From positions 7,187,246 to 7,251,245 of the forward strand of contig NC_087081.1 in assembly GCF_026151205.1 (NCBI RefSeq): 64,000 nt of DNA. The letters run 5' to 3'. Below are positions 4,680 to 55,775 of the stretch, in pieces; the stretch's first letter is position 1, and every line of letters starts with the position of its first letter. Both the position numbers and the translations under genes were made by a program. The notes under the pieces are model-generated. The model did not search any database, had not been told where the DNA came from, and was given only the letters and a program-made list of their open reading frames with translations. This DNA comes from Bolinopsis microptera. Its lineage: Eukaryota > Ctenophora > Tentaculata > Lobata > Bolinopsidae.

Positions 4680-6495
4680 CGGAACAATATCTGACGAAAG
4701 TCGATTATCTTGAGATCCTACTGATAAATTTTCTTTAAACTTTCCAGATAGTTGTATGGCTATGAGACGGATATTCTGTGCGATTTTGGGCGAATTTCTA
4801 TGTGCCAAACCTGATATATGACTTCAAACACAAGAAAATATCTCAAAATGGCGGTTTCTAGCGGAACGCAGGCACATATTTCGAGATCCTACTGATAAAT
4901 TTTCTTTAAACTTTCCAGATAGTTGTATGGCTGTGAGACGGATATTATGTGCGATTTTGGGCGAATTTCTATGTGCCAAACCTGAGATATGACTTCAAAC
5001 ACAAGAAAATATCTCAAAATGGCGGTTTCTAGCGGAACGCAGGCACATATTTCGAGATCCTACTGATACATTTTCTTTAAACTTTTCAGATAGTTGTATG
5101 GCTATGAGACGGATATTATGTGCGATTTTGGGCGAATTTCTATGTGCCAAACCTGAGATATGACTTCAAACACAAGAAAATATCTCAAATTGGCGCGTTC
5201 TAGCGGAACGCAGGCACATATTTCGAGATCCTACTGATGAATTTTCTTCAAATTTTCCAGATAGTTGTATGGCTATGAGACAGATAATCTGAGCAAGTTT
5301 AGGCGAATTTCTATGTGCCAAAATTGAGATATGACTTCAAACTCATGAAAACATCTCAAATTGGCGGTTTCGGAACGATATTTGACGAAAGTCGATTATT
5401 TTGAGATCCTACTGATAAATTTTCTTTAAACTTTCCAGATAGTTGTATGGCTATGAGACAGATAATCTGAGCAAGTTTGGGCGAATTTCTATGTGCCAAA
5501 CTTGAGATATGACTTCAAACACAAGAAAATATCTCAAAATGGCGGTTTCTAGCGGAACGCAGGCACATATTTCGAGATCCTACTGATAAATTTTCTTTAA
5601 ACTTTCCAGATAGTTGTATGGCTGTGAGACGGATATTATGTGCGATTTTGGGCGAATTTCTATGTGCCAAACCTGAGATATGACTTCAAACACAAGAAAA
5701 TATCTCAAATTGGCGCGTTCTAGCGGAACGCAGGCACATATTTCGAGATCCTACTGATAAATTTTCTTCAAATTTTCCAGATAGTTGTATGGCTATGAGA
5801 CAGATAATCTGAGCAAGTTTGGGCGAATTTCTATGTGCCAAAATTGAGATATGACTTCAAACTCATGAAAACATCTCAAATTGGCGGTTTCGGAACGATA
5901 TTTGACGAAAGTCGATTATTTTGAGATCCTACTGATAAATTTTCTTTAAACTTTCCAGATAGTTGTATGGCTATGAGACAGATAATCTGAGCAAGTTTGG
6001 GCGAATTTCTATGTGCCAAACTTGAGATATGACTTCAAACACAAGAAAATATCTCAAAATGGCGGTTTCTAGCGGAACGCAGGCACATATTTCGAGATCC
6101 TACTGATAAATTTTCTTCAAATTTTCCAGATAGTAGTATGGCTATGAGACAGATAATCTGAGCAAGTTTGGGCGAATTTCTATGTGCCAAAATTGAGATA
6201 TGACTTCAAACTCATGAAAACATCTCAAATTGGCGGTTTCGGAACGATATTTGACGAAAGTCGATTATTTTGAGATCCTACTGATAAATTTTCTTTAAAC
6301 TTTCCAGATAGTTGTATGGCTATGATACAGATAATCTGAGCAAGTTTGGGCGAATTTCTATGTGCCAAACTTGAGATATGACTTCAAACACAAGAAAATA
6401 TCTCAAAATGGCGGTTTCTAGCGGAACGCAGGCACATATTTCGAGATCCTACTGATAAATTTTCTTTAAACTTTCCAGATAGTTGTATGGCTATA
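4680..6495 (+). repeat. 171-bp satellite array, about 10.5 monomers, direct orientation
   Basis: The phrase GAGATCCTACTGAT recurs at 4712, 4883, 5054, 5225, 5403, 5574, 5745, 5923, 6094, 6272 and 6443, giving steps of 171 or 178 bases. Two monomer types differ just before that phrase: type A carries TAGCGGAACGCAGGCACAT, type B carries GATATTTGACGAAAGTCGAT and is 7 bases longer. From 5225 the order A-B-A repeats as a 520-base unit, a simple higher-order repeat. Copies are nearly identical, so amplification is recent. No coding potential. Confidence 0.9.
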
Positions 6496-7479: not shown

Positions 7480-8285
7480 GATTTTAATATTTGGGGCATA
7501 AGAATTCAACGAAACTCGCACAGATTGTTCCTATTATAGCCATGTAACTATCTGGAAAGTTTTAAGAAAATCTATCGGTCAGATCTTGAAATATATGCCT
7601 GCATCCTGCAGAAACCGCCAATTTGAGATATTTTCTTTGTTTGAAATCATATCTCAAGTTTGGCACTTAAAAGAAATTCACCCAAACTTGCTCAGATTAT
7701 CCGTCTCATAGCCATACAACTATCTGGAAAGTTTAAAGAAAATTTATCAGTAGGATCTCGAAATATGTGCCTGTGTTCCGCTAGAACGCGCCAATTTGAG
7801 ATATTTTCTTGTGTTTGAAGTCATATCTTAAGTTTGGCACATAGAAATTCGCCCAAACTTGCTCAGATTATCCGTCTTATAGCCATGTAACTATCTGGAA
7901 AGTTTAAAGGAAATTTATCCGTAGGATCTCGAAATATGTGCCTGTGTTCCGCTAGAACCCGCCAATTTGGAGATATTCTCTTGTGTTTGAAGTCATATCT
8001 CAAGTTTACCACATAGAAACTCACCCAAAATCGCACAGATTATCCGTCTTATAGCCATGTAACTATCTGGAAAGTTTAAAGAAAATCTATCATTCAGATC
8101 TCTAAATATATACCTGTGTTCCGCTAGAACCCGCCAATTTGGAGATATTTTCTTGTGTTTGAAGTCATATCTCCATTTTGGCATATAGAAATTCTCCCAA
8201 ACTCTTACACATTATCCGTCATATAGCCATCTAACTATCTGGAAAGTTTAAAGAAAATCTATCTGTCAGATCTTGAGAAAATCAA
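7480..8285 (-). repeat. 171-bp satellite array, about 4.5 diverged monomers, inverted orientation
   Basis: The same monomer as at 4680-6495 but reverse-complemented. TATCTGGAAAG recurs at 7549, 7721, 7892, 8063 and 8236 (steps of 171-173). Copies are more diverged than in the direct array. The array ends near 8285 before a non-repetitive segment. The 192-base open frame at 7993..8184 simply reads through monomers. Confidence 0.85.
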
Positions 8286-10749: not shown

Positions 10750-13428
10750 TCAGCTATTTGAAAACGTTAAATTTGAATACTTATCAGGGACACTGGCCGA
10801 GGAATTCATCGCTAAATAATCGCTATGAGGCTCCATCGCTAAATAGTCATCTGCAGGAGGCCGGGCCTCCATCTCAAGATAGTCCCCAGGTGGAGGAGCC
10901 ATAGCCAGGTAATCATCATGAGGCTGTGATCTACCCTGATAAGATCCTAAACTTTCCATCGTTAAATATTCATCCTGGTAGTCATCCCCAGAAGTCATGG
11001 GCAGAAAGTCACTCAGAGTCATATCAATCTCACCTAGCCTCATAAACTCAGGTTGATGTGATATATCTGCAGTTATTTGGGCTTGCAATCGTCCGGACTC
11101 CACGAATATTGGGGAAGGTGCGGCTCCGGAGGTGGCTACGTAAACTGGCGAGGGGGCGGCGCCTGTAGCGTCTACATACTCCGGGTCACGACCTGTGGAG
11201 AGACAAAGAGGTTAGTTAGGGTGTAAATGTTAATAGTGATGACTTATATTTGTTAATAGTCAATACCGATTTGTTAACAATTTGTTAATAGATACGAGGG
11301 ATATTTGTTGATATTTTAAATTAGTGACGCCAAATATTTGTCGTATTCGTCAATATAGCTGTGAACACGGATAACTAAGATTTGTTAATGAGGGAGGGGA
11401 ACTCTATCTCGAGCCAAAAAGTCACTATTCAAGTATTCGTGCCCCAAAGACTGGATACTCTTGAGAGGATGACGATATAAACATGGCTTTTATACTTCTA
11501 GTTCCACACTTTTAGAACACTTCAAAGTTCAAAGTAACCCCTGTAGTTACCAACCACATAGTAACCACACAGTAACCACACAGTAACCACACATGAACCA
11601 CACATGAACCACACAGTAACTACAAAGTTACCTCATAATAATAATCATTAGAATAGGACGGGAAAAAAAACTTCACGACCCCAAAGCTCAAATACTCGTG
11701 ATTCTTAACTTTAAGCTTTTAAGAACGCGGAATTTACGACTGAGAAAATAATGCACGGACAATGTTTGACGCAGTTTCCTCATTTCCTGCCTTGTCATTT
11801 GTCGTTTGTCTACCTCTAATATTATTGTTTTCCTGAAGTGAGCAGTGACAGGCAGCACTAATTGCTAATACTAATGGTGAATACTGATATGAGCGACAAC
11901 ATTGCAGCTCAATGATAAGATAGATTCGTTAATAGTAGTAACAAATATCATGGTATTAAGTGATGATATGAATGCATCGTTCAGCACGTACCGCCTTCAA
12001 AACCGCCTATATTAGCGTCTTATATAAACTAGGTAAACTTTATAAACTATCTGAGTTTGGGAGTAGACCGTGGCGAATGCTAGCTGCTCCTCGTGTTCTT
12101 ATCAATGCTTTGCCTTATTCCTTAATATTATGCAATACTTTATAGTGTTATGTAATGATCGTAATGGTCACAAAGATCAGAACAGGACCCAGAAGGTCAA
12201 GGTTTAGGTCCCTGGCCATTTCATGGTAAAATAAATATGTGGGACTAGCATAGTATAATATGTGGGACTAGCAGAGTATAATATAGGGCCACATGTCACA
12301 TCACAGTTATTGTGAAATAGGGAGTCAGGATGCGATAGCAGTCTGGTGTCTGATACCGTCACATTTATTGCAGTGACCCCAGTAGGTTGGACCTTCTATT
12401 AATCTGCTGTTTTTGTTATGGTTATAATTGCTTATTGTTGTCAAGGCTTTAGCTGATTAAATTTTTGTCAGTTAATTTTATTGCACTATTATTTTATCAT
12501 GAGGCAGTTGCAGTCGCTACAACCTACTGGTCATGTTGGAGTTTGAATGTTAATGACCATAATCAAATTGTAGACAGAATTACGATCCGTCATCAGTTCT
12601 GCAATTTAAACTATGACACTGGTGCTTTAGACATAGTTATCATTTCATCAATGGTAAATATCAATCCCACAGTCCCCCTCCAATATTACTGTTAAGATTT
12701 CATTTTTACCTGAGACCGCCAGAGTACGCGGTGGGAGAGGTCGAGAGTTTTGTTGGTTTATCTGAGCATTTGCCATCCTCGCTTCGTGCGACATCATCGG
12801 CTCGTAACCCTGGAAGTATTATCTGATGACGTCATGTCACGTGGTGTGACGTCATATCACGTGGTGTGACGTCATAATAACATTAGCTGTAAAGTTGCAT
12901 CATTTACTGGTTACAGCAACCAGCAGATTATGGTATATATCTGGATTAAAGTAGCACATATTCTACTTGTAGTGATAGGTCCGATAATAATTCCCAAATC
13001 GTTAGTCTAAGATACCAGTCTCCCATTGGCCAACGCAAGTCACGTGATGTGAGTAAAGGCTGCTGATTGACTACCTCGCTAATAGTCTGCGGAGGAATTT
13101 CAAAAATTCCCGTGACACATATCCCCTCATCCCTGTCAAAGAACTGACACTAGCAGCCTTCAACCTGAATCTTCACGCCTGTCGACTCTCGAGTCTCACC
13201 CACGTGAATTGTAATCTTATCCCACTTGACATGAAATTCTTTACCACGTGACATGACTTCTTTGGCCATCACATACCGAAATATGCTGTCGCCTACATTT
13301 TTTGTACCTGAATAGCATTAGAAGAACTTGAAGGTCTATCGTTGCTAGTTTGTCACAAAGTGCCTCGGTTTTAGGACGCGAAATTAAGATATAACACATA
13401 TTTTCACTTGTTGACACTCTCCAGAGCT

Positions 13429-13514
<86 letters not shown>

Positions 13515-16500
13515 AGAGAGAGAGAGAGAGAGAGAGGTTCACTAGGTTAAATCACATTTGTCTTTATCGGTTCTTAATGTTTCGAATGCCCTGGATGCAA
13601 TGTTCTCACGCTTTACTGGCATTTTAAAACTTTACAGTTGACAAGTTTATTGATTTATCGAATTTTATAGTTGTCAGATATTTAGGGCTTTCCTCTATGA
13701 CTGACAGATATTTTGGGGTTTTCTCCGCTTTTAATAAGTTTGCGTGTTGATTCTATATCACTGAATCAAACATTTTCTTTCGACCAAAAATGTTTGAAAA
13801 TAAAATAAATCGTGTGAAGCGGTTGTTGTCATAAACTCCTCTCTACTGGCGGAGAAAAGAGAACTTATTCTGGTGATTCATCACAGAGCAGTAATTTAAT
13901 GAATATTTAGTGATGAATTATTGAATTAGTCAAGCTTTTAAATTTCAACTATTAATATGTTGGCCGCAGCCGCTTTTTACAAATGACTATTAATACAACT
14001 TAACTCACCCACACTGTGCAATAAAATTAAATCGATTCACTATTCATAAGCCAGTCAACTAATTATACAACATTTACATAATAATTATATAAAATGTATG
14101 CAAATTTGTACAAATTATATTATATAATAAAATGTTAACTAACTTCTCTCTCATTGGAAGCAGCGGCTCGTTTCATCCTCTCTTCCATAGTCCCCATTGG
14201 AGTGTAACCCGGCTCGGGTACTGGTCTTCTGTTTAGTTTACCATGCCTCTCTCCTGATAAAATTAGTCAATTAGCTATTGGGTTAATTATTTAATTGGAA
14301 AATGCAAAATTATTTACTTTTGGTAAGTTGTACGGATTAGTTATTCGAATATCAGCCAATGGTGCGGGGAAGTGCGGTATTAGGTGAATAGTTCGATTCC
14401 GCACCCACCGCACTTAGATCTTTACATGTTACCTCTGACCACATTCAAAAATCCATTCAAAAATCCGAGACCCATTTACATAAATTTACATTAATACATT
14501 CGAACATATAAATATTTTCTGTAACACTAATACGAAAGTATTTATCCTACTTAGCACTAAAGCTAAAAGTTCACTCGTAACATTATCAAACACTTTCAGA
14601 AGGACAAGCTACCTTGATAAAATAGGTTAAAAATAAATTACCAGCTCTAACGGATTACTGCACTGATTAATAGCTAATTTAGAAAATTAAGAAAGCAGTT
14701 ATTTTAATAATTTACCTTGAACTGAGTCCCCTCTACTTTGAAGGGCTCCTTTAACTTCTGTAACATTTTGATATCCCGGCTTAACTTTAACCATACCTGT
14801 TACATGGTAAATGAGGTTTTTGTTGACTTATTTTACGTAAAAATTACCGTAATTATCTACTCAATATTAAGATTAACAAGCTCATCATCTTTATTTACGG
14901 TCTTCTCCCGTTTAATTAAAATTATACGATTTGTTTGCTGCACTGACCTGGATTATTATTCTGTATGGTAGGATATTTGCTGTTCCCGCTCTTTATGATT
15001 GTAGTGTTTGCACTACTCTGTATAGGGTCGCTGGTTGAGCGATGTAGTTCCTCTGTAGGAGTCGGGGAGTCTGGAATGGCGTCAAATTCGTCCTGAGATG
15101 GACAAAAGTCACGTCACGTTGTGTGACGTCACGTCACGTGGTGTGACGTGATGCATAACATGCTTATTCAATCAATAGTATTGATTTGTATGACGAATGA
15201 TCATTCCACTTTAATCGTTGTAATAATTATGGAAATGTAAGAACCCGGATAAGTATTAATTCAGCGGTTTTAATAAAATAAAAATTTACAAATTAGATTC
15301 CGACCAAACAAAACCTATCTTTTATGATTACTTATAACTTATTACCAGTCGATTTACGCATAGTTGGTCAGTTCGTACAAAAGTCGTACAAAATTCGTAC
15401 AGTTCGGCACCTTTTTTCAGTTCGGAATTAGTTCGGGAAAAATTCGCCTCATAAATTTTCGAACTTGGATTTAACCGAAAGAACTTAAATTAACTCAGAT
15501 GTCAGGCCTTTGATAGATAAGTACCTTTTCAAACGACCGGTGCTTTTAGCGAGGTTAAAATACTCTTTATTTACCATTATCACGAAATCAGATATGAGTC
15601 AAGATTTATTTTATGGTTTAAAATCATTAAGAATTTTGTTCAAAGAAAGCGACCACTAAAGATAATTTTCATTTGACGCAATATTATCGATTTTAATTGG
15701 ATTTCTTTGCGATATCACTACTAAATACTAATATATCATAGAGATCAGGATTGATGCTACAGCACTCATTAAACGATTGCATTTTATAAACCAGATTTTA
15801 AAGTTATTTAATTGAATTGAAAAGCTGTTTCTAAAACAACCGTTCCATAGAAAAGTAGAAGATTAGAAAATTCAGTGCTGAACTTTTATAGATGAACGTG
15901 CAATTTAAAAGAGATCGAAAACTTTGTAAAGCAGATTATAATTACATATAGTACTCCCACTCCCGATACATCTCAACCTGTGAGAGGGTATATTCTTGCC
16001 ATTAGTTTAACTGCGTCAACGTTACGATGGTCTAGACGCGATATTTTCTCCTGCGTGGTGCTATATAACGAGAATTACATAACCGAGATTTTATTTTATT
16101 TTATACTCCAAATAGTCGGCATCGGTTTGTGACTGACTTTTATACCACTGTACATCAGGGGTCGCTCCTATAATGAACTTTACCAAGGCAAGAATGCCTC
16201 CCTCCGTGACAAGTAACACTGTTCATTACATCCCAAGACTGAACATCACTGAACTTGGAAATGTTTTTGGCTGGGAAAACTATGTGCTCTATATAATCGC
16301 TGCTATTGACTTCTTCCTCGCTATAATCGGTGAGTATTATTAACGAACGAATCTAGTATATTATAACCAATATAAACTAATAATCTCAATAGATGTGTGT
16401 GTGTGTCTGTCTAGTGTATGTCTGTCTGTATAGTGCCCAAATAGTGCTGACAAAACTATGACGAAGCCAAATGATTAAGGTTTTTCAAATCGGTCGGTGG

Positions 16501-19500
16501 TAAGTGGTTTAAAATTCGGTAAAAATTCCTCGACAGCTTTTTAAAATTCGTACAGTTCGGCACCTTTTAAAAGTTCGTACAGTGCGTACAGGGACAAAAG
16601 GATTTCGCGATTATTTTGGCCAAAATTCGCGATACCGCGAATTTTAACAGACTAGGTATTCATTAAACTATACATAAAATTTGTCGCAAATAATGGGAAA
16701 TATCGCGGTTCCGTACATGCCGCGATTTCCTTTGTCACTGAGTGCGTACTATGGTGTGATTTACGGCGAATAACTGAATAACAGGAAATTAGACATTTCA
16801 GTAAAGTAGACTTAAGTTAGATGCAATGCTAGCTGCAGTCATAATTCAAACACTTATCAAATGTTAACTATCTACTTTCCGCCTTACAATGGTTTCTCTT
16901 ACAACAGAATTTAAATTTTAAACCACCAAACAAACAAACCTGCGCTTTCTTGCTCAACGTAAGGATGCCAGGTTTAGGTGGTAAAGTGGCCCCTCTATTG
17001 GGGGGAGGCAGTGTCATAGCCCCTCTGTTAGGTCCATGGTACAAGCTGCCGCCCCGTGGGGAGGTGGAGGGTCGTGAGAGGCTCATGGTTGATTCTTTGG
17101 GTGGGGTGTAGCCTTCTAGGAAGGGGTTGTGGTGTTGTCCCCCCGCTACAGTTCCTGGAACATGTTTTGTGTTATTATTGTGCCTTTGAGATTTACTTGT
17201 TACTCTACTCACAAGCCTCTTTTGAAAGATAGGTATCGATTTTCATTTTGATGCGCAAAATTGACTCCGAATTTTTTAGATCACTGTATTTGCAATTGGT
17301 CAAATCTCCAACGAGCAATGAGGAGAATTAAAATAAGGCAGACCCACCTGCTCTCTGAGGAATCCTGGGAGGGGTGAAGGGTGCCCCAACAGCAGCAGTA
17401 GTAGCTGACAAGATCCCTGCAGAAATAGTACCTCTAGGAGGAGTTAGGAGGGGTTGAGCGGTAGATCTGGTTGGGGGTGTTCTGGGAAGTAGAGGTGGAG
17501 GTACGGGTCTCTCTTCCCTAGGAGGAGGAGGTGAGGGAGTGGCTCTCACTTCTAAATACTCGTTATCAGGCGCTGACTTCCTCTCCAGACTCGGACCAAA
17601 CTGGTCCCTGTGATTCATCTTAGCTCTGGTTAGAGTATTGTTGGTCACAGTACCGGACTGTTCAGCTGGAAGAACCTCCGTTAAGTGAGAGTCCCTGGTT
17701 TCTGGGGGTAGAAGTGGTACAGGACGGTTGGGTCTACACATTGTCTCAGATTGGGGTCTGGCTGGTTTAGGGTCCTCCACTGGAGGGCGGGAGGGACGTC
17801 CTAGAGTCTGTCCTCGAGAAGGGACAGGAGGTCTGTCTGTGCGAGGTGGAAGGTAGGGTTTGGGAGGGGATCGGGCGATGGGATCTGAAACTGGGACCCG
17901 GAATAATGGGTCTGATACAGAACTGAGGGGGCTGGGAGGGGTGGTTCTTGCAGGCGGGATATTGTAGTGGGGTTCTTCATATTGTGGAGGAGGCGGGGTC
18001 TCTCGCGGTGGGAGCGGCGTTGCGTGTGGAGGAGGCACGGTTTCTCGCAGTGGGGGCGGCGTTGCTCGTGGTGGCGGGGGCGTATCTCGAGATGGCGGTG
18101 GTATATTGTAGATAGCTTCCTCCTCTATTTTAACAACTTGTCCAGCGCTCTCCTTGTCGTCGATAACCAGCATTTGATAGGCGGAGTCTATGGAGTCGTG
18201 TCTGCCCATAGACATGGTAGTTGTTCTGATGTAACTGCTGTTACTCGTAGTTTCGCTCGAGCTGGGGGAATATGTCGTTAGTTAATTATTAATTATTCAA
18301 ACTTAATATTATGTTTGCATATTGTTTGTCATGAATGTTAACACAGTGTGAAACAATTGTTATGAAACACCTTATTACATAACCCTATTTTATAAGAAAG
18401 TATTAAGAAGTATTGGGTCTATGTTTTAGAGCAGAAGCTGTCAGAATTTGAGCCAGGTGTCATCGTCGGATTGTAGGCTTAGATGTGGATGAGAAAAATT
18501 CCTTAGTATGTCATATCCTTACTACTTTAAAAGGTTTGCACTAATTGTTTATCACTTTTGTCAAGTTTTGCTCTAAACTTCATTAGAAATACTCAGCACC
18601 TATATAAGACAATTAATCACTAATTTATAATTGTCATATCCATACTATTGTTCTAGTTCAGTTATTGTCGTAGCCTTGGTCTTGGGTAAGATAGACGGAC
18701 CCATATTATCATTAGATTTAGTCAGTTGAATTAGATGGAATTGAGATGTTGACAGTTGATATCGCTATTTTTAGAGAGTAAACGTTAGAATTTAACAGTC
18801 TGACACTAACAGTCACAAATTATCAAACAGGTCCCCAAATATTCAGTAACACATTTAAAAACGTCGCACTCAAGTCACCAAGAAGTCACTAACACGTCAC
18901 TGATTTAAGTCACTTACTTGCTCAAAACGCTATTTCCAGTAGCTCGTCTGCTGTTAAGTTCCAGGCTGGATCCTAATAAATTAGGCTCTCTTTTTGGAGG
19001 AGGAGTATCGTAGAGAGGCTCCAGATCTGCTACCTGAGTAGATATTAGGGTTTACCTTTGATTAAATGGGAGATCAGCTACCTGAGTAAATATTAGACGT
19101 TAGCGTCTAATTAACAAGGGGTGGGGGACGGGGTCGGCTGCAGTTTTATCTACTGAACCTTTCCAAGAGAAGAATTGCTTCATTGTAAAATATTGTAGCT
19201 AAAAGTTAAGACCATTTTTCTGCTTTTCTGAAAACTTTACGTGACGCTTGGATCGGCTACATTCCAGTAGATACAAATCGGACTGACGAATATTTTTGTT
19301 GACGTAAAGATGCCACGCGAGGGATTGCAGAAGAGATTATATCTTTTAACATGGCGGGTTTAATAATTGTCAAGATACCTTATTAATTCTGATCTAGATT
19401 CCGAATCCAGTTAATTCTCCCAATTCGGTCATGACACCAGACTGGAACGGCCCACTAAAATATGTCTTGGAATGGTCACGTTTAATATTGTGGATACTTT

Positions 19501-21757
19501 CATGGTTTCATTTGCCGCAATAGAGCGTGAAAATTCATCAACAATGAATTTGTTTCATTAATTTCGATTAATATAGGGCTTTCACATAAGATTGAGAATG
19601 TATCAATGCCTTATAGATGAGCAAATATTAGATAAAAGTGACTGCTACATGACACAACGGGTATTCACAAAGCATATGTTGTTCTTTGTCCTAACAAGTG
19701 CGATACAAACTGTTATTTCTATCCCGCTCAAAAAGAGCCGAAAAAGTGTCGGGTCTCTTTCCGGCCTTTGTAGTGAGTAATTTTTAGAGTAAATATTTTG
19801 TAGTAAATACTTTCACGGTACTTCCTGCTTCTCAGGCTTTGCAGAAAATACTTTTGTAGTATCTTATCTAGGCTGTTTCTGTACTACTGAATCATCAGCA
19901 TGTTACTGATGGAGATTTAGCGCGAAAATACATTACGGGACGTGCTGTACCACGTGTCTCCAAAGAATACTTGATTAGAGACACGTGACATGACTGCTTG
20001 TGCGTGCACCAAAACCTTTGACAAGACATGTACAAAATCACGTGACCAAGCGTGCAAAGTCACATGACTGCACGTGCAAAGTCCCATGATTGTGCGTGCA
20101 AAGTCACGTGACTGCACGTGCAAAGTCACGTGATTGTGCGTGACTGCACGTGCAAAGTTACATGATTGTGCGTGGCTGCACGTGCAAAGTCACTTGATTG
20201 TGCGTGACTGCACTTGATAAATCTATTTACCTGTATACCATCCACCTCAGTCGGCTCAGAGGGTTGTTTAGTACTCCTCAAGCTTGGAACGTCGTATATA
20301 TCCTCAGCATCTTCTGTACTTACTGCCTGTAAAATATATATTTAATTAAAGACCAATTATGTAGTTTACAAGTTATAGGTCGCAGCTAAACATTAGGCAC
20401 TCGGGTCACACGATACACCAGGTGTGAACACTTAGTCTAGTTGTGTGATCCACTATTTAACACCAGGCTATACTCTTTTAATGAAATAGAAACGTATCAA
20501 TTACGCAAAAATCAGTGGCGGCTAGAATTCAGACTAGTCTCGTCACTGCAATTGGGATCTCTTTTGACACAACCCTATCGGTAATACTTGCTACTACAAA
20601 GTACAAAATACTCAGGTATTTCGGATTTCCACATTTTTGCTGCTAATTTTCCAACTCAACGTTCATTTTGTATGGAAAACTCGTCGCGAGAGAGAAAATT
20701 GGATTCACCGCTAACTCAAACAAATATAGTTGTTCAGAAAATCTATTTTGTGACTAAATATTTGTACTTTATATTTTGTCAACTCTCGATTCCCTTGTGA
20801 CTAAAAAGAGACTGCGCGTTTTTGATTTAGTCGAATGAGTCATGTTAATTGTTAATTTGAGGTATCTTTCCCTGGATAAATTTATTTTAAGTTATAAAAT
20901 TTAAAAAAGGTTATATTTAATTTTTAAAGTTATATCATACCTCTGGAGCAGGAGCAAGTGAGTCGTACAAGATAATTTTAGGCTTCGGTGCAATTTTAGG
21001 CTTCTGAGCGGGCAGGGATCTGATAACGTTGCTTGGAATGTCGTAGAGATCTTCATCGGGAGAGGAAATAGTTTTTGTCACTGTTTCAACCTGATGTACA
21101 GAGGGGTTTGGTGTCAAGAATCAGGTGATTGGTGATTAATTAGTTAATAAATTACTGCGAACTTGCTTTTTTACTAGTAGGCTGTGGAGCAACTTTAAAT
21201 TGTTAAAAACAGTTCATGTTAAGAAAACTCAGTCAATTCTAAATTTAACTTTAATTGATAAAGAAAGTTTATATTAGTTTATATAATTATCCCAATTATG
21301 AAGTCATTGTGATGTCATTACCCTAATTATGAGTTATAGTATCAATATCAAAGAAACGACAGAGTATAATTATTCATCATGTTCTCTGTTGTTGCAACTC
21401 AGTAACTGTTAGTCAGTAGTATTTATATTGAATTGAATTAAACAATTAAATAACTTTATCTACAGTCTATATTATTATGATGCTATCTTTAAAACGTTTT
21501 TAGTTTTCAACGATGGTACATTTACTTAGATCTAAATTACTTAAAGTTAGTCATTTTTCAATGCTGAAACAACGTTGTCATGTTCAACTCATCATAATTC
21601 TTACAGTGTCAATTGAATTTACTTTTGTTCTGTCTCTCACCTGTCTGAGACTGATAGCAGGGTCTTGAGCCGGTATGTCATAAGTTGGCTCAGCAGAGTT
21701 GTTCTCATCGAACAGGTAGTCGTGATCGGCGTCGTATAACGGCGTCTTTTCATCCGC
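10750..21757 (-). CDS. Multi-site tyrosine docking protein (YxxP plus YxxM arrays; 5' exons not identified)
   Basis: Eleven exons join in frame with GT-AG introns: 21641..21757, 20941..21090, 20231..20326, 18918..19033, 17348..18261, 16940..17154, 14948..15092, 14716..14796, 14144..14253, 12710..12809, 10750..11192 (828 codons plus TGA; every phase agrees). The N-terminal part carries YxxP motifs of the CRK/ABL/NCK-SH2 type (TYDIP, LYDIP, IYDVP, LYDTP, IYNIP, HYNIP) and a 914-base exon of TPPPP-type repeats with SH3 ligands (RPVPLLP, PPVPSR). GYQNV and KYSNL fit the GRB2 YxN rule. Seven YxxM motifs (GYTPM, GYEPM, EYLTM, DYLAM three times, DYLEM) fit PI3K p85 SH2 sites; five are packed in the last exon. 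No kinase, PH, PTB, SH2 or membrane segment is visible. The design resembles GAB/IRS/p130Cas scaffolds or a receptor tail; orthology is not established. Introns hold microsatellites and CACGTG arrays. Confidence 0.85.
12822..12880. repeat. TGACGTCA/CACGTG tandem repeat at a 3' splice site
   Basis: Three copies of a roughly 20-base unit (GTCACGTGGTGTGACGTCAT) lie 12 bases upstream, in minus sense, of the acceptor that opens the exon 12710..12809. Both embedded palindromes are consensus sites for bHLH (CACGTG) and CREB/ATF (TGACGTCA) factors; binding is not shown. Confidence 0.7.
13432..13537. repeat. (GA)n microsatellite
   Basis: About 100 bases of almost pure AG dinucleotide, with one GGGGG interruption near 13508-13513, inside the intron 12810..14143 of the docking-protein gene. 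Confidence 0.95.
15103..15150. repeat. TGACGTCA/CACGTG tandem repeat upstream of an exon
   Basis: Units of GTGTGACGTCACGTCACGTG-type sequence lie 10-60 bases upstream (minus sense) of the acceptor for exon 14948..15092. This is the same repeat type as at 12822..12880. Confidence 0.65.
16173..16329 (+). CDS. Orphan first-exon candidate: N-glycosylation sites plus one membrane helix
   Basis: An ATG opens 52 codons ending ATC G|GTGAGT, a strong donor in phase 1. The segment has NFT and NIT glycosylation sequons and then one hydrophobic helix (ENYVLYIIAAIDFFLAII). The FGWENYVLY lead-in followed by the first helix is reminiscent of the N-terminus of SLC5-type sodium-coupled transporters, but 52 residues are too few to be sure. 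It sits on the opposite strand inside the intron 15093..16939 of the docking-protein gene. No continuing exons were found downstream on the plus strand, so it may be a fragment left by duplication, the first exon of a gene with a very long intron, or chance. No function is claimed. Confidence 0.35.
19935..20218. repeat. Degenerate minisatellite of GCACGTGCAAAGTCACGTGA units
   Basis: Around eight alternating copies of GACTGCACGTGCAAAGTCAC and GATTGTGCGTG, each holding CACGTG or near matches. The array ends 12 bases from the donor (20230) of exon 20231..20326. Open frames read here are repeat artefacts. Confidence 0.8.
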
Positions 21758-21760
21758 CTG

Positions 21761-21910
21761 AGTTAGAGTTAGAGTTAGAGTTAGAGTTAGAGTTAGAGTT
21801 AGAGTTAGAGTTAGAGTTAGAGTTAGAGTTAGAGTTAAAGTTAGAGTTAAAGTTAGAGTTAAAGTAAGAGTAAGAGTAAGAGTTAGAGTTAGAGTTAGAG
21901 TTAGAGTCTA
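21761..21910. repeat. (GTTAGA)n array forming the 3' end of an intron on the minus strand
   Basis: About 24 hexamers with a few AAAGTT or TAAGAG variants. In the sense of the docking-protein gene it reads (CTAACT)n and runs directly into the acceptor (CTAACTCAG) of exon 21641..21757, so it supplies both the pyrimidine tract and many copies of the branch-point-like CTAAC. Degenerate hexamers trail to about 22100. Confidence 0.9.
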
Positions 21911-31936: not shown

Positions 31937-33844
31937 ATGATAAGATGGATGACAGACCTCTCGGAGGAACAGCTCCGGGCTGTCAACTTATTTGTTATTC
32001 TCTTACTCTTCAGCGGGTTCTTTGTTTCCAGCTTCCTTAACCCTGTCATCCTACTTTACTACAAGTAAGTACTTTGACTTTGTTAACTTAATTAATTAAA
32101 TTAAATCATTAACTTATTTGATTAAATTAAATATTTCACTTATCTAACAGTCCAATTAATAACCAAATCTACTATTAAATAACTTAATGTAACTTAAATA
32201 CTTCATCGAGTTATTAAATTATTGAAAATATATTTTACTGCAATTCTTCCCAGTTTCTCTTGAGCACAAGTAAAACATTAAAAATATCCACGTGACAAGC
32301 ATATATTATTAAATAATCTAAATATTTGTCGTAAGAAACGTTACTTATTTACGTGTCATATAGTAGAATACTAGAATAGCCTAATGTGCCAAATACTTTA
32401 AATATTTGTCAAGATATAACGATTAAAGTTTGATAACAAACAACAAGACGCGTCCTACTCTGTTCTGATTCAACTAATTAATTTCTAATCCATTACTTTA
32501 CAATTAAGTTAAATTCACCCATCATCTTAACATGCTTAACCAACCAACCAATCATCCGATAAACTAAGACACTAATTTAACCTAAGAAGTAACCTAACAA
32601 TTAATTAATTAATTAACTAATTAATTAATTAACTAATTAATTAGCTAATTAACTAATGACCAACCACCCCTCAGCAAGAACAAGTCCCAGAAACTCAGCA
32701 GAAAGCTGTTCATGCTGCTGTCAGTCTCTGACTTCTGTACAAACAGCTACCCTGTCCTACACATTCTCTACTTTTGTGTGTCTCCTAACGTTAACTTTGG
32801 GGTTAACACAAACTACGATCAGACCATTGATTACACATTCAGGTAATATTTCAGAGTTTATATAAAGATATAAGATATAAGATATTATTGTTAATGTTCC
32901 TTATTATACGATGATGTTCTGCTTGATAAAATAGATATTTCATAGGCATTTTACCGATATGACGTTCATTTCAGTTATCAATTGATCTCCAATGTTCGCT
33001 ACCGTAATATAATCATGATAATAATGTTACCATGGTAGGATGTTGTAGTAATCTCTGTCTTGTATGTAGTGGATTACAGGACGAACCTATAAAATGCCCA
33101 CTAAGCAACACCTAACCCCGTACTCCCCCCAGGTTCTACGCAGTTCCCAGTCTAATAATGTGCACATTCGGCTGTCTCTCCCAAGTAACAACCTCTGTGC
33201 TAGCCATCGTCCGGATGATCTCCATCTTCAGCCCCTTCATCCGGCTGCCCCAGTGGGCATTCCTCACCTACATAGCCGTCTACACCTGCATCATGGCCAT
33301 CAACAACTTCGGGTTTGCTCTCTGTCAGTTCCTGGAACTGACCCCCAAAGTACGGGGGATAATAATCCTGACGGTGGACTGTTGTTACTGGTTAAACATC
33401 GCCCAGTGCATCCTGGGCATTGTAGCTTCACTGCTGACCATGGGCAGGATCTTCTCCAAGAGACGAGTCAAGGATACGAGAACTAGAAGCTGTTGGATCA
33501 TCCTGCTGATGAACATCCCCTACTGCATGTCAACTATCAACTTTATATTATCCAAGACTAATCTAGCTAAATATGGATATGTTTATTTGTCGTTTGTGTG
33601 CGTGCCAAGTTTCACGTCTATGTTTAACCCGTTGATTATCGTGTTTTTGAATCAGGAGATAAGAGATTTTACACATTTGTTGGTAACTAAGGGTTTTATT
33701 CAGACGTATAGTACCCGGAAATTAAGTAGAGTTGGGCCTGATACCAGCACCACTGTTATGTTGACCTACAATTTGACTCTCAACAACAGAAACGGAACTC
33801 TTAACAAGACTAAGCTTGAGGAGAAAAGCTCCGAGAACTTTTAA
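31937..33844 (+). CDS. Class A (rhodopsin-like) GPCR, 335 residues, ligand unknown
   Basis: Seven-transmembrane receptor in the plasma membrane, presumably coupling to G proteins. Three exons: 31937..32064, 32675..32842, 33133..33844; donors CAA|GTAAGT and CAG|GTAATA, acceptors CCCCTCAG and CCCCCCAG, all in frame. TM1 has the conserved Asn (SFLNPVILLYY), TM2 the conserved Asp (LLSVSDFC), the end of TM3 has VLAIVRMISI where DRY is usual (Arg kept, flanks changed), and TM7 has FNPLIIVFL in place of NPxxY (Asn-Pro kept, Tyr lost). The ectodomain is very short (about 17 residues). The second exon ends in a Tyr/Asp/Asn-rich loop before TM3. The C-tail is about 60 residues with several Thr/Ser and NxT. 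Such atypical DRY/NPxxY variants are common in lineage-expanded invertebrate receptors. It may be nested in an intron of the minus-strand gene if the exon at 34882..35064 belongs to that gene. Confidence 0.85.
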
Positions 33845-34881: not shown

Positions 34882-35064
34882 CTCAACATCAAAGTTGTAA
34901 GCAGGATCAGTATCTCGGTTGAGAGTAGGACTCATAATCTGGGTCCTCATCATAAAGTTACTGCTGGGTAACAACATGTCGTTACTATTGGTCACGTGAT
35001 GGGACACCTTCTCTGCGCTGGAGTTCCGCTGGTTCATCCGCAGCATCCACTCTCGTTGTGACAC
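34882..35064 (-). CDS. Internal exon candidate, possibly a 5' exon of the docking-protein gene
   Basis: 61 codons, phase 0 at both ends, between acceptor AATATTTTCACAG and donor GTTGAG|GTGAGG. The peptide is Met-, Asn- and Ser-rich and ends with a tyrosine in an acidic context (RDTDPAYNFDVE), matching the style of the docking-protein exons. Phase would allow direct joining to exon 21641..21757, which starts with ADEKTPLYDADHDY. The join would span a 13-kb intron holding the GPCR on the other strand and several transposons. No domain recognised; the exon is likely real, its gene assignment is tentative. Confidence 0.5.
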
Positions 35065-49251: not shown

Positions 49252-52200
49252 CTAAAAACCAAGTAAACTGTCCTTTACCACCTTCAATACAACACTAATT
49301 CTCGACACCGGTCTGTAGTAATCCGGCTTCTTTAATTCTGCTCTATTCCTTAGAGAACGTCCTCCACTGACTACAGGTGTACTCTGTTCCTCAGGTGAGT
49401 AAGCTAGTGTACTGTTACTCTCCCCCAGTATGACAGGACTCAAACTATCCTCCATCCGGGATGTAGGTTCCTCAACCCCTCTGCCCCACCCGGGTGTGTG
49501 GAAAGATCCAAAACTCGATTCTGTCTCCTGGATAGGTGATGAAATATGAATAGGAGTGTTAACCCTAGCTGGTGTTTGAGGGTCATGTTGGATTGAAATT
49601 TCCTGACTTTCCGTTCTGAAAGGAAGTGTATACTCAGGTGATAGAGGTTCGTCAGGAATTTCAATTCTCTGATTAGACAAAGTACTCTCTCGAATCACAG
49701 GATTCCTTCTCTCTACTTGCTCAGGCATCCACTCCTCATCACTACTGCTATCACTATTCTCACTGTCCCTTCTCACTGGGTCTTTTCTCACTGGCTCCGC
49801 AGTATATCTGCTGCCCTCACGAATCACTACTCTTTTCTCCGAGAATCTGTTCATCTCGTAGTGCTTCATTTTACAAATATTTGTGACCTTCTCTAACCCA
49901 GGTCCGTACTCCACTACATATAAGTGATCATTTATCACCTTCTTTACCTTGCACGGACCCCTAAATCGTGGAGCAAACTTGTGTTTAGGACATTGCACTA
50001 ACACGAAACAAAAGTCGTTCTCCTTAAAGTAAGGACCATGCAGTTTACGATCATGTTGCCTCTGTGCATACATGAAATCTACATTAGCACTCTCTCTCAC
50101 TCTCCTGATGATCCTCTTCATTTCTCTGTGAAGCTCGTATGCCTCTCTGGCAGCGGCGTTCCTCGTATCTGGCTGATGCTTTTCTCTATCATCTAACATC
50201 AGATTCAACGGCAAGTTTACCTCTCTGCCAAATATCATCTTGTGAGCAGAATACCCAGTTCTCCGGTTCTTCAAACAGTTCAAGGCAAATGTACTCTTGT
50301 CCAGATACATATCCCAACAGTGCTCCTTTCCCTTAGGAATGCATGCACGTAACGCTCGATTGGTTCTCTTGTTGTTGCTCTCAGCACGGGCCGTGCTAGA
50401 CGCTTTATACGATGTTCCGTGAGTTTTCTTGCACTCGAAAGACTCCCAAACTTCCTTGAAGAATTCTGCTCTGAACCCGGGGTGATTATCCACAATTAAC
50501 TCCCGACACATTCCGAACTTTAATACCCAGTTCTTCATTATCGCTGCTATATTCTCCTTAGCAGTTTGACTCTTGACTGGAACTGCCACTAGATAGTTTG
50601 ACCAGGCATCAGAGATAGTAAGGATGTATCGATATCCTCGGGGTGTTCTCTGATTTGCTGTCGGTACTATGTGATCAATTACTATAGCGTCATTGAAATG
50701 GTGGAAGAATAAATGCTTTAACGGTGCTTTCAGATAAGCTTTCGGCTGCTTCATCTCTCCGCATCTTATGCACGCTTTGATGTACATTTTGAAGTCCTGC
50801 TCCATCTTTGGCCAGTAGAAGTACTCCCTGCATTTCTCCACACAGGTGCTGATTCCCGGGTGACAGTTGGTGATGTTGTCGTGAAACAGTCTCATGATCT
50901 CTTCTTCATAGCTGTCTGGTATCACGATCAACTCTCTCGAATCCTTCTCTTTTCTTTTAACCCACTTTCTCTTCAAGAGTCCACTTTCATCCACTTTCAT
51001 CAAGCTAAATTGGGTCCAATAGGTGATCAATTTGTCTGGCACACGGTTCACCTGGATTGTTCCCCGGGCGCCGTCTTTAACCCACTGTTTCACAATCCTC
51101 AATATTGGATCCAAGTTCTGCTCTGTCTTGATCCTTTCCAAATCTGGTAAGCATTGTTTGTCTGTCTCTGTATCTGGTACTGCAAAGGTAACCTGTTTAC
51201 AATTACCCTGCTTCTTCTGAAGTCGTGGCATCACATCGATGCTGCAAATACATACAGGAACATCCTTCTCCTTGAGCTTTACCATCCTCACATGTCCATC
51301 ATGATTGTCCTCGAACAGGAGTTGTAGATCACTTTTCTCCGTTTGATCTCTCTTAGTCACCTTTTTTTCATCATGCTCATCAATTATCTCATCTGTACTC
51401 TGCTCTCTCCATATCTCATTCTTCCAGCCATTTATCCCCTCACTGATTACTATCTCGCTCCCACTACTACACACTCTGCTGTTCTCTCCCATACCACACA
51501 TGACGTTATCAGCGTCACTCACCACACCAGGACTCTTCTCAGAGGATTCACTAACGTCAGAAGCGTTGTGATCACGTGTAACATTACTAGAGGATTCACT
51601 AACGTCAGAAGCGTTGTGATCACGTGTAATATTACTAGAGGATTCACTAACGTCAGAAGCGTTGTGATCACCCGTAACATTACTAGAGGATTCACTAACG
51701 TCAGAAGCGTTGTGATCACGTGTAACATTACTAGAGGATTCACTAACGTCAGAAGCGTTGTGACTCGGGATGGTATCGACACCCAGAGACCTGGTAAACT
51801 CCTCTCCTCTCGATCTCTCCGCTCCACTGACTTCTGTCTGGCATGATGCTTCCACGAATTTCCTTCTGAATGGAAATCTGCTCAAAAAGTCACATAGCGT
51901 GTTCTCTTTTCCTTCAATGTGCACGATATCAAAGGAGTAGTTGGATAGCTCCTGGCACTTCCTGATTAAAGCAGGATCTGATTTTGAGAACAGGGTGTCG
52001 CTCGCTGATAGGAGACTCTTACAGTCCGTTATAACTTTGAACTTGGTGTTTCTGAGATACATCTTCCAGTGATCAATGGCTATCACCATGGCATCAAATT
52101 CTAGCTGTGTCTGGCTCCTTTCTCTCTTGTAGGGTGGTACAGCTTTACTATAGAATGCTACTATTCTCCTCTCTCTCTTTCCATCTCGTACTATCTCCTG

Positions 52201-54204
52201 GCTCAAGGTAGCTCCGTATCCATGTTTGCTAGCGTCCACTGTCAGGTGATATGACTGGAATGGGTCCTCTGTATCAAGTATAGCCAACATCGTACTCTCC
52301 GCCACCGCTCTCTTTAGCTCCTCAAACGCCTCCTGGCACTCACTTGTCCACTCAAACTTTGCTTCCTTCGTAGTGAGCTTGTGAAGAGGCTTCGCAATTA
52401 CGCTGTATCTGGGTATCCACTTCCTCACGTAGTTCAAGGCACCTAACACTTCTTGAACCCTCTTCACAGTGGTGGGAACAGGTAAGGCAAGTAGATCCTT
52501 AACCCTGTCCTCTGTGATCTGTACTCCGTCCTCGCTGATTGACACACCCACGAATGTAACTTTCTCCCTCAGTAGCATACATTTTTTGGGGGTCAACGTC
52601 AGATTCGCTTGAACCAGTCTCATCAGCAGGATCTCCAATCTGTCGAGATGTTCGCTCACAGTCTTTGAACTCAGGAACAGATCGTCGATGAAGAATATCA
52701 ACTGTTCTATCGGAACTGTTGCCAGAAGTTTCCACATCACCTTCGAGAACACGCTACTGGAGTTCTTGTGACCCATGATCATACGAGCCCAACAGTATGA
52801 CCTTCCCCTGTGCATGAACGCTGTAACCTTCTTCGAATCTTCAGAGTATGGTATCTGCCAGAAACTCTTAGAGAGATCGAAACTTGAATAAATAGAGTCT
52901 GATCCTATCGTGTCTAACACGTGATTCAAGTTGGGTAACGGGTATTTCTCATCCATGCAGACTTTGTTGGTACCCCTCAGGTCTGCTACCAACCTCCATG
53001 ATTCAGGATCTGTATTCTTTTTGACCAGAAATATAGGATGGTTGAAGTCACTGGGTCCTTTCAGGGGCTCTGCTATTCCCGCTCTCACCATCTGTTCAAT
53101 TTGGCGGTCCATCTCTGGCTGAAGTTTGTACGGGGTAGGTATAGGATATGTCCAGCTGGGCGACTCTCCCTCCTTCATCTTGATCTTTGCTTCATACATA
53201 TTGCAGCACCCGATATCAAATTCATCATGCGAGAAGCAGTCCCTGAATCTCCAGATTATCTCCTTCAGTCTGGTCTTCTCAGTGTTAGACATTGCCACCT
53301 CTATCTCGTCCAGCCCGAGCCTCTCAAACAACTCACTCTGAATCCATTTCTCCCCACCTATCTGTCCTGGCTCACTCCTGGTCTCCTGAGCTTGGTCATC
53401 AATTGTAGTCCCTCTCACTCCGACATCGTGACTCCTGCTCCTTTGCACGCCGTGTATGAAATCTTGATCGCCTACAGGCTTCAACAGTGCAATGATCTTG
53501 TTCTTGTGAATTGTTATCGGTTCATCAGTTGCGTTAATACACTTCATCGGAATCAGTCTCTTCTCAGAGTGCACAACTGCATGAGCGAACAGAATTCCTG
53601 TCTCTCCAATTCCGTGCTTGTACTGTGGCTCAATCAAACCCTTGAAGTTCACTCCTTTCGCCTGCAGCTTTCCACTGATGTATTGCACCGTGTTTGGAGG
53701 AATGACTGTGACTCTGCTACATCTCACTTTTATCTGCTGCTTTACATTCTCCGGCTTCTCCGTGAACGGCACCTCATCTCCGTTATGCAGCACCAATCTG
53801 CACTTGTTATAATCCAGCGTCACTCTATTCGATCTCAAGAAGTCATCTCCAATCAGGAACTCTGTGTCTAACAGATCAGTTACCACGAAAGTGTGCACAA
53901 ACTTATTTCCAGCAACCACCACTTCCATCTCTAACTCTCCTCTGATTTGTATCGTGTCTTGAGAAAATGACTTCAAGGTCATGTTACACGGTCGGATCCC
54001 GCTCTCTAGTCTCAGTCCTCTCACAAAACCCGTGGACACAATACTCACAGCCGACCCGCTGTCAACAAAAAGGTAGGCTGCCACTCCTCTGCAACTCCCA
54101 GCCACCAAGATGTGTTTCCAGTTCACCGCATTCACCTCCTTCTGCTTCCCATATGATTTTAATTGCGACTGATGGGAAATGAATTTTGTCCAGTCGCACG
54201 CCCG
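49252..54204 (-). CDS. pol: LTR retrotransposon Pol polyprotein (PR-RT-RNaseH-IN), expressed by -1 frameshift
   Basis: Enzymes for copying and integrating the element. Coordinates run from the predicted -1 shift at 54204 to the stop. Counting residues from 54135: aspartic protease active site VDSGS at about 25; reverse transcriptase about 300-520, with the catalytic box FFIDDLFL near 480 (Phe-Ile in place of the usual Tyr-Val); RNase H starting LTVDASKHGYG near 630; a linker of five 16-residue repeats (HNASDVSESSSN) at about 790-863; integrase zinc-binding HHCC region at about 1083-1125; integrase core with D near 1156, D near 1213 (VDNHPGF) and E 36 residues later, a D,D35E pattern; then a GPF/Y-like module (FRGPCKVKKV) and a long Ser/Glu/Pro-rich tail. 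No frame damage. There is no ATG near the 5' end, in line with expression as a Gag-Pol fusion. Confidence 0.9.
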   Translation of the reverse strand, partial: RACDWTKFISHQSQLKSYGKQKEVNAVNWKHILVAGSCRGVAAYLFVDSGSAVSIVSTGFVRGLRLESGIRPCNMTLKSFSQDTIQIRGELEMEVVVAGNKFVHTFVVTDLLDTEFLIGDDFLRSNRVTLDYNKCRLVLHNGDEVPFTEKPENVKQQIKVRCSRVTVIPPNTVQYISGKLQAKGVNFKGLIEPQYKHGIGETGILFAHAVVHSEKRLIPMKCINATDEPITIHKNKIIALLKPVGDQDFIHGVQRSRSHDVGVRGTTIDDQAQETRSEPGQIGGEKWIQSELFERLGLDEIEVAMSNTEKTRLKEIIWRFRDCFSHDEFDIGCCNMYEAKIKMKEGESPSWTYPIPTPYKLQPEMDRQIEQMVRAGIAEPLKGPSDFNHPIFLVKKNTDPESWRLVADLRGTNKVCMDEKYPLPNLNHVLDTIGSDSIYSSFDLSKSFWQIPYSEDSKKVTAFMHRGRSYCWARMIMGHKNSSSVFSKVMWKLLATVPIEQLIFFIDDLFLSSKTVSEHLDRLEILLMRLVQANLTLTPKKCMLLREKVTFVGVSISEDGVQITEDRVKDLLALPVPTTVKRVQEVLGALNYVRKWIPRYSVIAKPLHKLTTKEAKFEWTSECQEAFEELKRAVAESTMLAILDTEDPFQSYHLTVDASKHGYGATLSQEIVRDGKRERRIVAFYSKAVPPYKRERSQTQLEFDAMVIAIDHWKMYLRNTKFKVITDCKSLLSASDTLFSKSDPALIRKCQELSNYSFDIVHIEGKENTLCDFLSRFPFRRKFVEASCQTEVSGAERSRGEEFTRSLGVDTIPSHNASDVSESSSNVTRDHNASDVSESSSNVTGDHNASDVSESSSNITRDHNASDVSESSSNVTRDHNASDVSESSEKSPGVVSDADNVMCGMGENSRVCSSGSEIVISEGINGWKNEIWREQSTDEIIDEHDEKKVTKRDQTEKSDLQLLFEDNHDGHVRMVKLKEKDVPVCICSIDVMPRLQKKQGNCKQVTFAVPDTETDKQCLPDLERIKTEQNLDPILRIVKQWVKDGARGTIQVNRVPDKLITYWTQFSLMKVDESGLLKRKWVKRKEKDSRELIVIPDSYEEEIMRLFHDNITNCHPGISTCVEKCREYFYWPKMEQDFKMYIKACIRCGEMKQPKAYLKAPLKHLFFHHFNDAIVIDHIVPTANQRTPRGYRYILTISDAWSNYLVAVPVKSQTAKENIAAIMKNWVLKFGMCRELIVDNHPGFRAEFFKEVWESFECKKTHGTSYKASSTARAESNNKRTNRALRACIPKGKEHCWDMYLDKSTFALNCLKNRRTGYSAHKMIFGREVNLPLNLMLDDREKHQPDTRNAAAREAYELHREMKRIIRRVRESANVDFMYAQRQHDRKLHGPYFKENDFCFVLVQCPKHKFAPRFRGPCKVKKVINDHLYVVEYGPGLEKVTNICKMKHYEMNRFSEKRVVIREGSRYTAEPVRKDPVRRDSENSDSSSDEEWMPEQVERRNPVIRESTLSNQRIEIPDEPLSPEYTLPFRTESQEISIQHDPQTPARVNTPIHISSPIQETESSFGSFHTPGWGRGVEEPTSRMEDSLSPVILGESNSTLAYSPEEQSTPVVSGGRSLRNRAELKKPDYYRPVSRISVVLKVVKDSLLGF
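51541..51766 (-). repeat. 48-bp coding minisatellite inside pol
   Basis: Nearly five copies of a 48-base unit that keeps the frame and encodes HNASDVSESSSNVTRD. It lies between RNase H and integrase, where length variation is tolerated. Its acidic Ser/Asn repeats resemble a flexible linker. Confidence 0.9.
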
Positions 54205-55523: not shown

Positions 55524-55775
55524 AGTACCACTTTCCTAGGTTCTCCAGATAGTGTTCACTGAATTGATTTCTCTAGTTAGAAGCTGAAGTTAGGGACCCG
55601 GACAGAGTGTTCACAAAACCTCGCACGTTTTCTCACTCTTCCCTGGCCCCATTTTCTTGGCTCACTCATCTGGAGTAGATACTTTCAGTGACTGTTTTCC
55701 GTGTACTTTATTATATTACATATAGTAGCAAACCTATATCTACATTTAAACAAGAGTATCATTTACAGCTAAAAA
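55524..55775. other. Junction between LTR-element leader and CR1 ORF2
   Basis: On the minus strand this is the leader upstream of gag: TGGAGAACCTAGG near 55545 and TGGGGCCAGG near 55645 are both possible primer-binding sites, and AATAAA lies near 55710. On the plus strand the LINE reading frame starts at 55776. Where one element ends and the other begins could not be fixed. Confidence 0.3.

Follow-up and report, generated by a model that had tools for sequence, protein, structure and literature searches.

A run of minus-strand exons from the lobate ctenophore Bolinopsis microptera raises the question of what kind of protein would carry, with no globular domain in sight, a dense series of CRK-type tyrosine sites (YxxP) followed by a dense series of phosphoinositide 3-kinase (PI3K)-type sites (YxxM). 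The exons lie in a window, by which we mean the whole 64,000-nucleotide stretch analyzed here, corresponding to C10:7,187,246-7,251,245 on the chromosome-scale contig C10 (NC_087081.1); the genome searched comprises 264,652,675 bases in 232 contigs. We hold with good confidence that these exons, together with others upstream of them, encode a Gab/DOS-type docking protein of 1121 residues in which a PH domain, a Ser/Thr-rich linker, a YxxP block, a proline-rich block and a YxxM block would be combined, and the protein looks like a divergent member of that family, which is already known, and not like a novel type of scaffold.

Inspection of the splice sites bears out the original prediction of eleven phase-matched exons between window positions 21757 and 10750: an AG acceptor precedes all eleven, GT stands at the ten internal donors, phases agree at 10 of 10 junctions, and the spliced length of 2487 nucleotides amounts to 828 codons plus a stop. 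Among the 30 tyrosines of these 828 residues there are ten YxxP sites (four of them YDxP), seven YxxM sites and two YxN sites, and every YxxP is N-terminal to every YxxM, much as had been announced; if the 17 sites were ordered at random, so complete a separation, in either direction, would have p ~1e-4. When the 828 residues were shuffled 20,000 times, the seven YxxM sites (mean 0.79) were reached in 0 of 20,000 shuffles, and at least ten YxxP sites (mean 4.75) were obtained in 253; the YxN sites that had also been listed are present but not above chance (2 observed vs a mean of 1.16, with 6547 shuffles reaching 2). The claim that no globular domain is encoded holds for the window, as a Pfam scan of the 828 residues gave no domain match and minus-strand scans of window 21.7-49.3 and 55.5-64 kb gave no credible one (matches to PRIMA1, RUN, PCEMA1, Sec63 and CFAP143, in these scans or in that of the full protein, were rejected as low-complexity or under the curated cut-off), but it does not hold for the gene model, whose PH domain is encoded upstream, outside the window.

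This upstream domain was found within a further 160 kb of DNA, the first 80 kb of which were covered by Pfam on the minus strand and the final 80 kb by a local PH search. Pfam returned a PH match in the first 40 kb (E 0.0067) and none in the second 40 kb. A local search with the PH domain of human GAB1 (694 residues in the GAB1 sequence used) ranked the same PH exon first (E 1.4e-5) and placed third a candidate first exon reading MESDIVCEGYLTKAPP (E 0.24); the second-ranked hit (ext 171165-171010, E 0.16) lies far upstream and was left unused. Nine further same-strand exons were added upstream of the docking exons, one of them inside the window. The resulting exons are as follows, with coordinates that carry no contig name referring to the window, and with AG/GT denoting acceptor and donor.

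Exon 1: C10:7,305,313-7,305,248, minus strand; placed by inspection and phase
Exon 2: C10:7,301,953-7,301,904, minus strand; placed by inspection and phase
Exon 3: C10:7,301,636-7,301,590, minus strand; placed by inspection and phase
Exon 4: C10:7,296,982-7,296,896, minus strand; placed by inspection and phase
Exon 5: C10:7,284,015-7,283,884, minus strand; placed by inspection and phase; genome match of the GAB1 PH domain
Exon 6: C10:7,283,646-7,283,507, minus strand; placed by inspection and phase
Exon 7: C10:7,281,120-7,281,032, minus strand; placed by inspection and phase
Exon 8: C10:7,280,804-7,280,720, minus strand; placed by inspection and phase; GTAAGT donor, ends in phase 0
Exon 9: 34882..35064, minus strand; 61 codons, phase 0/0, good splice sites; linker between PH part and YxxP block
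Exon 10: 21641..21757, minus strand; first of the eleven originally predicted; YDIP; AG/GT, phase 0/0
Exon 11: 20941..21090, minus strand; YDIP; AG/GT, phase-matched
Exon 12: 20231..20326, minus strand; YDVP; AG/GT, phase-matched
Exon 13: 18918..19033, minus strand; YDTP; AG/GT, phase-matched
Exon 14: 17348..18261, minus strand; four YxxP and the bulk of the proline-rich SH3-ligand region in a 317-residue open frame
Exon 15: 16940..17154, minus strand; final two YxxP; AG/GT, phase-matched
Exon 16: 14948..15092, minus strand; AG/GT, phase-matched
Exon 17: 14716..14796, minus strand; YxN (GYQNV); AG/GT, phase-matched
Exon 18: 14144..14253, minus strand; GYTPM, the first YxxM; AG/GT, phase-matched
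Exon 19: 12710..12809, minus strand; GYEPM; AG/GT, phase-matched
Exon 20: 10750..11192, minus strand; five YLxM, KYSNL and the in-frame stop codon

The 20-exon model runs on the minus strand of C10 from 7,305,313 to 7,197,995 (107 kb), with the PH-exon part at C10:7,280,720-7,305,313 and the docking-exon part at C10:7,197,995-7,222,309, and passes through 19 phase-matched junctions to a single stop, at its end; an in-frame TAG lies three codons ahead of the start ATG. The 828 residues encoded by the eleven exons form the C-terminal three quarters of the 1121. A genome search with the full protein gave 21 matches, namely its own 20 exons and one weak proline-rich match on C1, and the gene is single-copy at the sensitivity of that search; it may already be modelled in the published Bolinopsis annotation, for which RNA-seq and Iso-Seq were both used (PMC10232365). 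In phase, exon 9 fits both of its neighbors, exon 10 and exon 8 (the latter beyond the window). An early reading of its start (QREWMLRMNQ) as the end of the PH helix was abandoned once PH exons turned up upstream, and its acceptor and first bases (window 35064) are duplicated about 125 bases upstream (~35190) in a copy that runs into a stop. The intron end before exon 10 (window 21760-21907) consists of a hexamer array, GAGTTA on the plus strand and CTAACT on the gene strand, in which some 25 tandem branch-point-like units reach into the acceptor.

The N-terminal PH domain is complete in the assembled model, its link to the docking exons being suggested by phase: PF00169 matches residues 6-117 with 40.2 bits (cut-off 25.1; E 5.3e-10), covering profile positions 2-103 of 105. 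When the PH domain was compared with the PDB by phmmer, EGYLTK, FTLH and LKYFKD aligned with DAPP1 (whole-sequence E 0.018) across the junctions of exons 1-3, which lends these joins some support independent of GAB1. The linker that follows (residues 121-293) is 25% Ser/Thr, with a hydrophobic fraction of 26% vs 28% in the PH part. The YxxP sites then extend over residues 319-796 and the YxxM sites over residues 921-1100; within the YxxP block lies the long SH3-ligand region that had been foreseen, at residues 471-780, with 24% proline, and the protein offers 22 PxxP, five [KR]xxPxxP and four PxxPx[KR] motifs as predicted ligands.

The PH domain may be of Gab type. In phmmer comparisons it scores 37.8 bits against GAB1 and 33.8 against GAB2, whereas the best chain in the PDB, DAPP1, reaches 18.2 bits; BLASTP against GAB1 gives 50.4 bits, and one of the two genome matches of the GAB1 PH domain is exon 5 of this gene. 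Eight loci among the 20 PF00169 genome matches listed were then compared with both proteins. GAB1 scored highest with the docking gene (pieces of 20.9 and 15.5 bits, vs 20.1 for a locus on C2), and for GAB2 the C2 locus furnished the best single piece (23.4, vs 16.3 and 15.3 for the docking gene); we take the C2 PH exon to resemble the PHETA/sesquipedalian PH domain. In a 2009 review of the Gab/DOS proteins (PMC2747914), three features define Gab: a PH domain at the N-terminus, proline-rich ligands for SH3 domains, and several tyrosines that serve as SH2 ligands. All three occur in the gene model, the tyrosines in the form of Crk and p85 motifs. The GAB-like hub named as one option in the original prediction gains support, in that a PH domain scoring higher with GAB1 than with any PDB chain begins the same-strand model.

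Several results weigh against this reading. Identity of the PH domain to GAB1 is only 27%, and from the side of GAB1 the PDB chains of Myosin X (48.7 bits) and TAPP1 (37.3 bits) score, respectively, higher than the docking gene and about the same. Among what was compared, GAB1 thus comes closest to this PH domain, but this PH domain does not come closest to GAB1. Searching the whole genome with the GAB1 PH domain, exon by exon and among the best candidates, gave two matches, of which the C2 gene (C2:18,840,558, 25.5 bits) slightly outscores exon 5 of the docking gene (21.4 bits) over that one exon. The Grb2 SH3 site PxxxRxxKP has no match in the 1121 residues, SHP2-type sites are absent from the last 250 residues, and the iSH2 family of PI3K regulatory subunits (PF16454) has no genome match at E <= 0.001. 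PH exons 1-4 were chosen partly by eye for their PH likeness, a scan for exons missed exon 7, whose donor scores 1.6 (threshold 2.0), and for the join of exons 8 and 9 only phase speaks, together with the small number of candidate exons that score better, across an intron 8 of 58 kb that contains two retroelements and a Laminin_G_3-type unit. The lack of the Grb2 motif should be read beside the observation, in PMC2747914, that this motif is not universal, DOS and SOC-1 being without a typical one.

The long intron also feeds the possibility that two neighboring genes are involved, in which case exons 1-8 would encode a PH protein ending in a Ser/Thr-rich stretch and a PH-less docking protein would begin around exon 9: besides the retroelements, the 58 kb hold the laminin-type unit on the same strand, and the scan of the gap scored internal-type exons only. 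The scan ranked splice-bounded open stretches of internal type between 21.7 and 96.2 kb (donor threshold 2.0) by a codon score that in a first run was trained on the ranked exons themselves and in a rerun left out exons 7-10. Outside the retroelement stretch the rerun placed an extended exon 10 first, exon 8 second, a 16-codon candidate third and exon 9 fourth, the candidate (89156-89107) sitting in a repeat-like frame; the codon score is itself weak, as exons 1-7, each scored by leave-one-out, come out close to zero or below it, and further exons may exist in the 58-kb intron, given that a real one was missed. Nevertheless, both sides of the junction are in phase 0, and the donor of exon 8 reads GTAAGT. 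One of the two GAB1-PH matches in 264.65 Mb, moreover, shares its strand with a GAB-like tail that follows about 62 kb downstream, an adjacency that would arise by chance about once in 1,600 (a rough estimate from two matches, 160 kb of upstream DNA and both strands). We consequently regard two separate genes as unlikely and infer that the exon 8-9 join yields one PH-to-YxxM protein. That the chain is spurious and no gene exists we consider scarcely credible: the model is built on splice sites and phase, but 20 exons joined at 19 phase-matched junctions read through 1121 codons in one open frame, and none of the shuffles reached the observed number of YxxM sites.

Within intron 8, a Ty3/gypsy-like element, whose gag-like and pol-like reading frames are long and open, occupies window 49255-55535 on the minus strand, and a long interspersed nuclear element-like element with a Cys-rich N-terminus occupies window 55773-59324 on the plus strand (both named by eye). 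The Laminin_G_3/pentraxin-type multi-exon unit recurs in closely similar form some 70 kb away on the minus strand, its copies lying at C10 ~7,254,500-7,256,300 and 7,324,800-7,330,800.

Other families of docking protein were also considered. An IRS- or DOK-type protein would join its PH domain to a PTB domain, and here the PH domain is present, the G/D-Y-x-x-M cluster is reminiscent of IRS proteins, and the linker is so near the PH part in hydrophobic content that its composition alone is compatible with a divergent small domain; Pfam, however, found no PTB domain (PF02174) in the 1121 residues at E <= 1, and the two PTB genome matches listed are on C2 and C5, not C10, which makes this reading very unlikely. 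We find it highly improbable that the exons encode either a member of the CAS family or a receptor tail, be it that of a receptor kinase or of another transmembrane receptor, in spite of a dense YDxP block that recalls p130CAS/BCAR1. Hydropathy reveals no transmembrane segment (the most hydrophobic 19-residue window averages 1.17), the Pfam searches of the full protein, at the same cut-off, and of the minus strand show no kinase, SH3 or CAS/FAT-like domain, and the protein has a PH domain in place of the SH3 domain of p130CAS, plus a YxxM block. Membership of the Dof/BCAP/BANK group is disfavored, as Pfam at E <= 1 gave neither DBB nor ankyrin repeats. Hence the IRS-like, CAS-like and receptor-tail options of the original prediction are not supported, and of the PH, PTB, SH3 and transmembrane features that it proposed to seek in the missing exons, the PH domain alone was found.

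Returning to the Gab/DOS reading, a motif scan of GAB1 shows that its own six YxxP sites (242, 259, 307, 317, 373, 406) all precede its three YxxM sites (447, 472, 589). The order seen in the docking protein accordingly has a precedent, and the original prediction errs for GAB1 in saying that established scaffolds combine small numbers of both kinds; the unusual feature is the number of p85-type sites, seven vs three. According to PMC10453317, the p85 sites of GAB1 are Y447, Y472 and Y589 and its CRK/PLC-gamma sites include Y259, Y307, Y317, Y373 and Y407, an agreement in numbering which indicates that the GAB1 sequence used here is broadly sound; the same paper gives Y424 for CRK, a site that is not YxxP in our copy. 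With GAB1 the docking protein would share an N-terminal PH domain, a proline-rich body and the placing of CRK-type YxxP sites ahead of YxxM sites of the p85 type, whereas it is longer (1121 vs 694 residues), carries ten YxxP and seven YxxM sites, and is devoid of both the PxxxRxxKP Grb2 site and the SHP2-type pair near the C-terminus. Matches to [IVLS]xYxx[ILV] do occur, three in all, starting at 372, 479 and 867. NeGab of Nematostella, as described in PMC2747914, resembles it in having the PH domain, ligand motifs for SH3 domains and ligand motifs for the SH2 domains of p85 and CrkL, and in missing bona fide SHP2 motifs, but differs by retaining aligned Grb2-SH3 sites, where the docking protein has only three bare RxxK cores, about the level of chance by a rough estimate. 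The GAB1/GAB2 morphologs of the sponge Spongilla (PMC10176882) likewise extend a Gab-type annotation beyond cnidarians and bilaterians, although they were assigned by predicted structure, and the likeness drawn here is one of annotation, not of sequence.

The readers to be expected for such a hub are encoded in the genome: a CRK-type SH2 domain for YxxP and, for YxxM, a p85-like gene. A genome search for SH2 domains gave 33 matches, 30 of which were taken as loci, with the truncated L025 and L028 set aside. A CRK-type SH2 exon occurs at C74:8959-9078 and C19:32713-32832, on small contigs with similar flanks that are probably copies of one region and perhaps alternative haplotypes; two joined CRK SH2 exons have a Crk-like protein as their best PDB match (E 1.1e-22). 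The p85-type N-terminal SH2 domain at C1:21,446,092 matches p85-alpha in the PDB (E 1.7e-13) and is followed within about 1.3 kb by two stretches recognized by eye, one resembling a coiled coil and the other a further SH2 domain.

On these grounds, the docking protein would most likely convert kinase activity into a CRK arm and a PI3K arm, with SH3 ligands between them. The PH domain, aided by the SH3 domains of adaptors, might bring it to activated receptors at the membrane, where tyrosine kinases (by receptor or Src-family activity) would phosphorylate it; the YDxP sites could then bind CRK-type SH2 domains, leading to Rac/Rap and cytoskeletal output, while the YxxM sites could bind p85 and so raise phosphatidylinositol trisphosphate (PIP3). 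As in the positive loop that PMC10453317 describes for GAB1, PIP3 could in turn keep the PH domain at the membrane. Part of the customary K-x-R basic motif is, however, substituted in this PH domain, which reads WCYRYF where GAB1 has WKRRWF.

The phylogenetic position of a ctenophore gives this layout its wider relevance. The 2009 review traced Gab back as far as Nematostella and found none in either Trichoplax or Monosiga (PMC2747914), and a 2023 paper assigned sponge Gab morphologs by structure (PMC10176882); among the papers listed by our literature searches on Gab in ctenophores and early animals, none reports a ctenophore Gab. In a ctenophore, a protein of Gab layout accompanied by CRK and p85-like readers would put the hub at or near the root of animals. 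We therefore entertain, tentatively and as a real possibility rather than a favored conclusion, that a single-copy Gab/DOS protein with the order PH domain, CRK sites, SH3 ligands and p85 sites was already present when the ctenophore lineage and that of the other animals parted. Were this true, the linear order of GAB1 would be ancestral and functionally constrained, and the Grb2-SH3 and SHP2 connections would be later additions. The age and order of the effector arms become testable in this light, CRK and PI3K sites being present and Grb2 and SHP2 sites not recognizable.

The docking gene shares its surroundings with other features. Plus-strand exons that by eye resemble a seven-helix receptor lie in its introns 15 and 9, so that the genes would interleave, and Pfam gave no seven-transmembrane match on them:

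Window 16173-16329, plus strand: exon with the first transmembrane helix
Window ~32670-32841, plus strand: exon with the second helix
Window ~33131-33844, plus strand: exon with helices three to seven

A further exon region of the same appearance is found just upstream of the docking gene, on the minus strand at C10 ~7,309,700-7,310,500. Elsewhere in the genome, ionotropic glutamate receptor matches are numerous (32); for the one compared with the PDB, none of the 60 matches shown had a name suggesting a ctenophore. Contig C232 (10,124 bases), considered as a candidate mitochondrial sequence, resembles tandem repeat in the 4,000 bases read. Finally, satellite arrays with a unit of about 171 bases occupy window 4712-6494 and 7503-8273, and their consensus is apparently inverted between the two.

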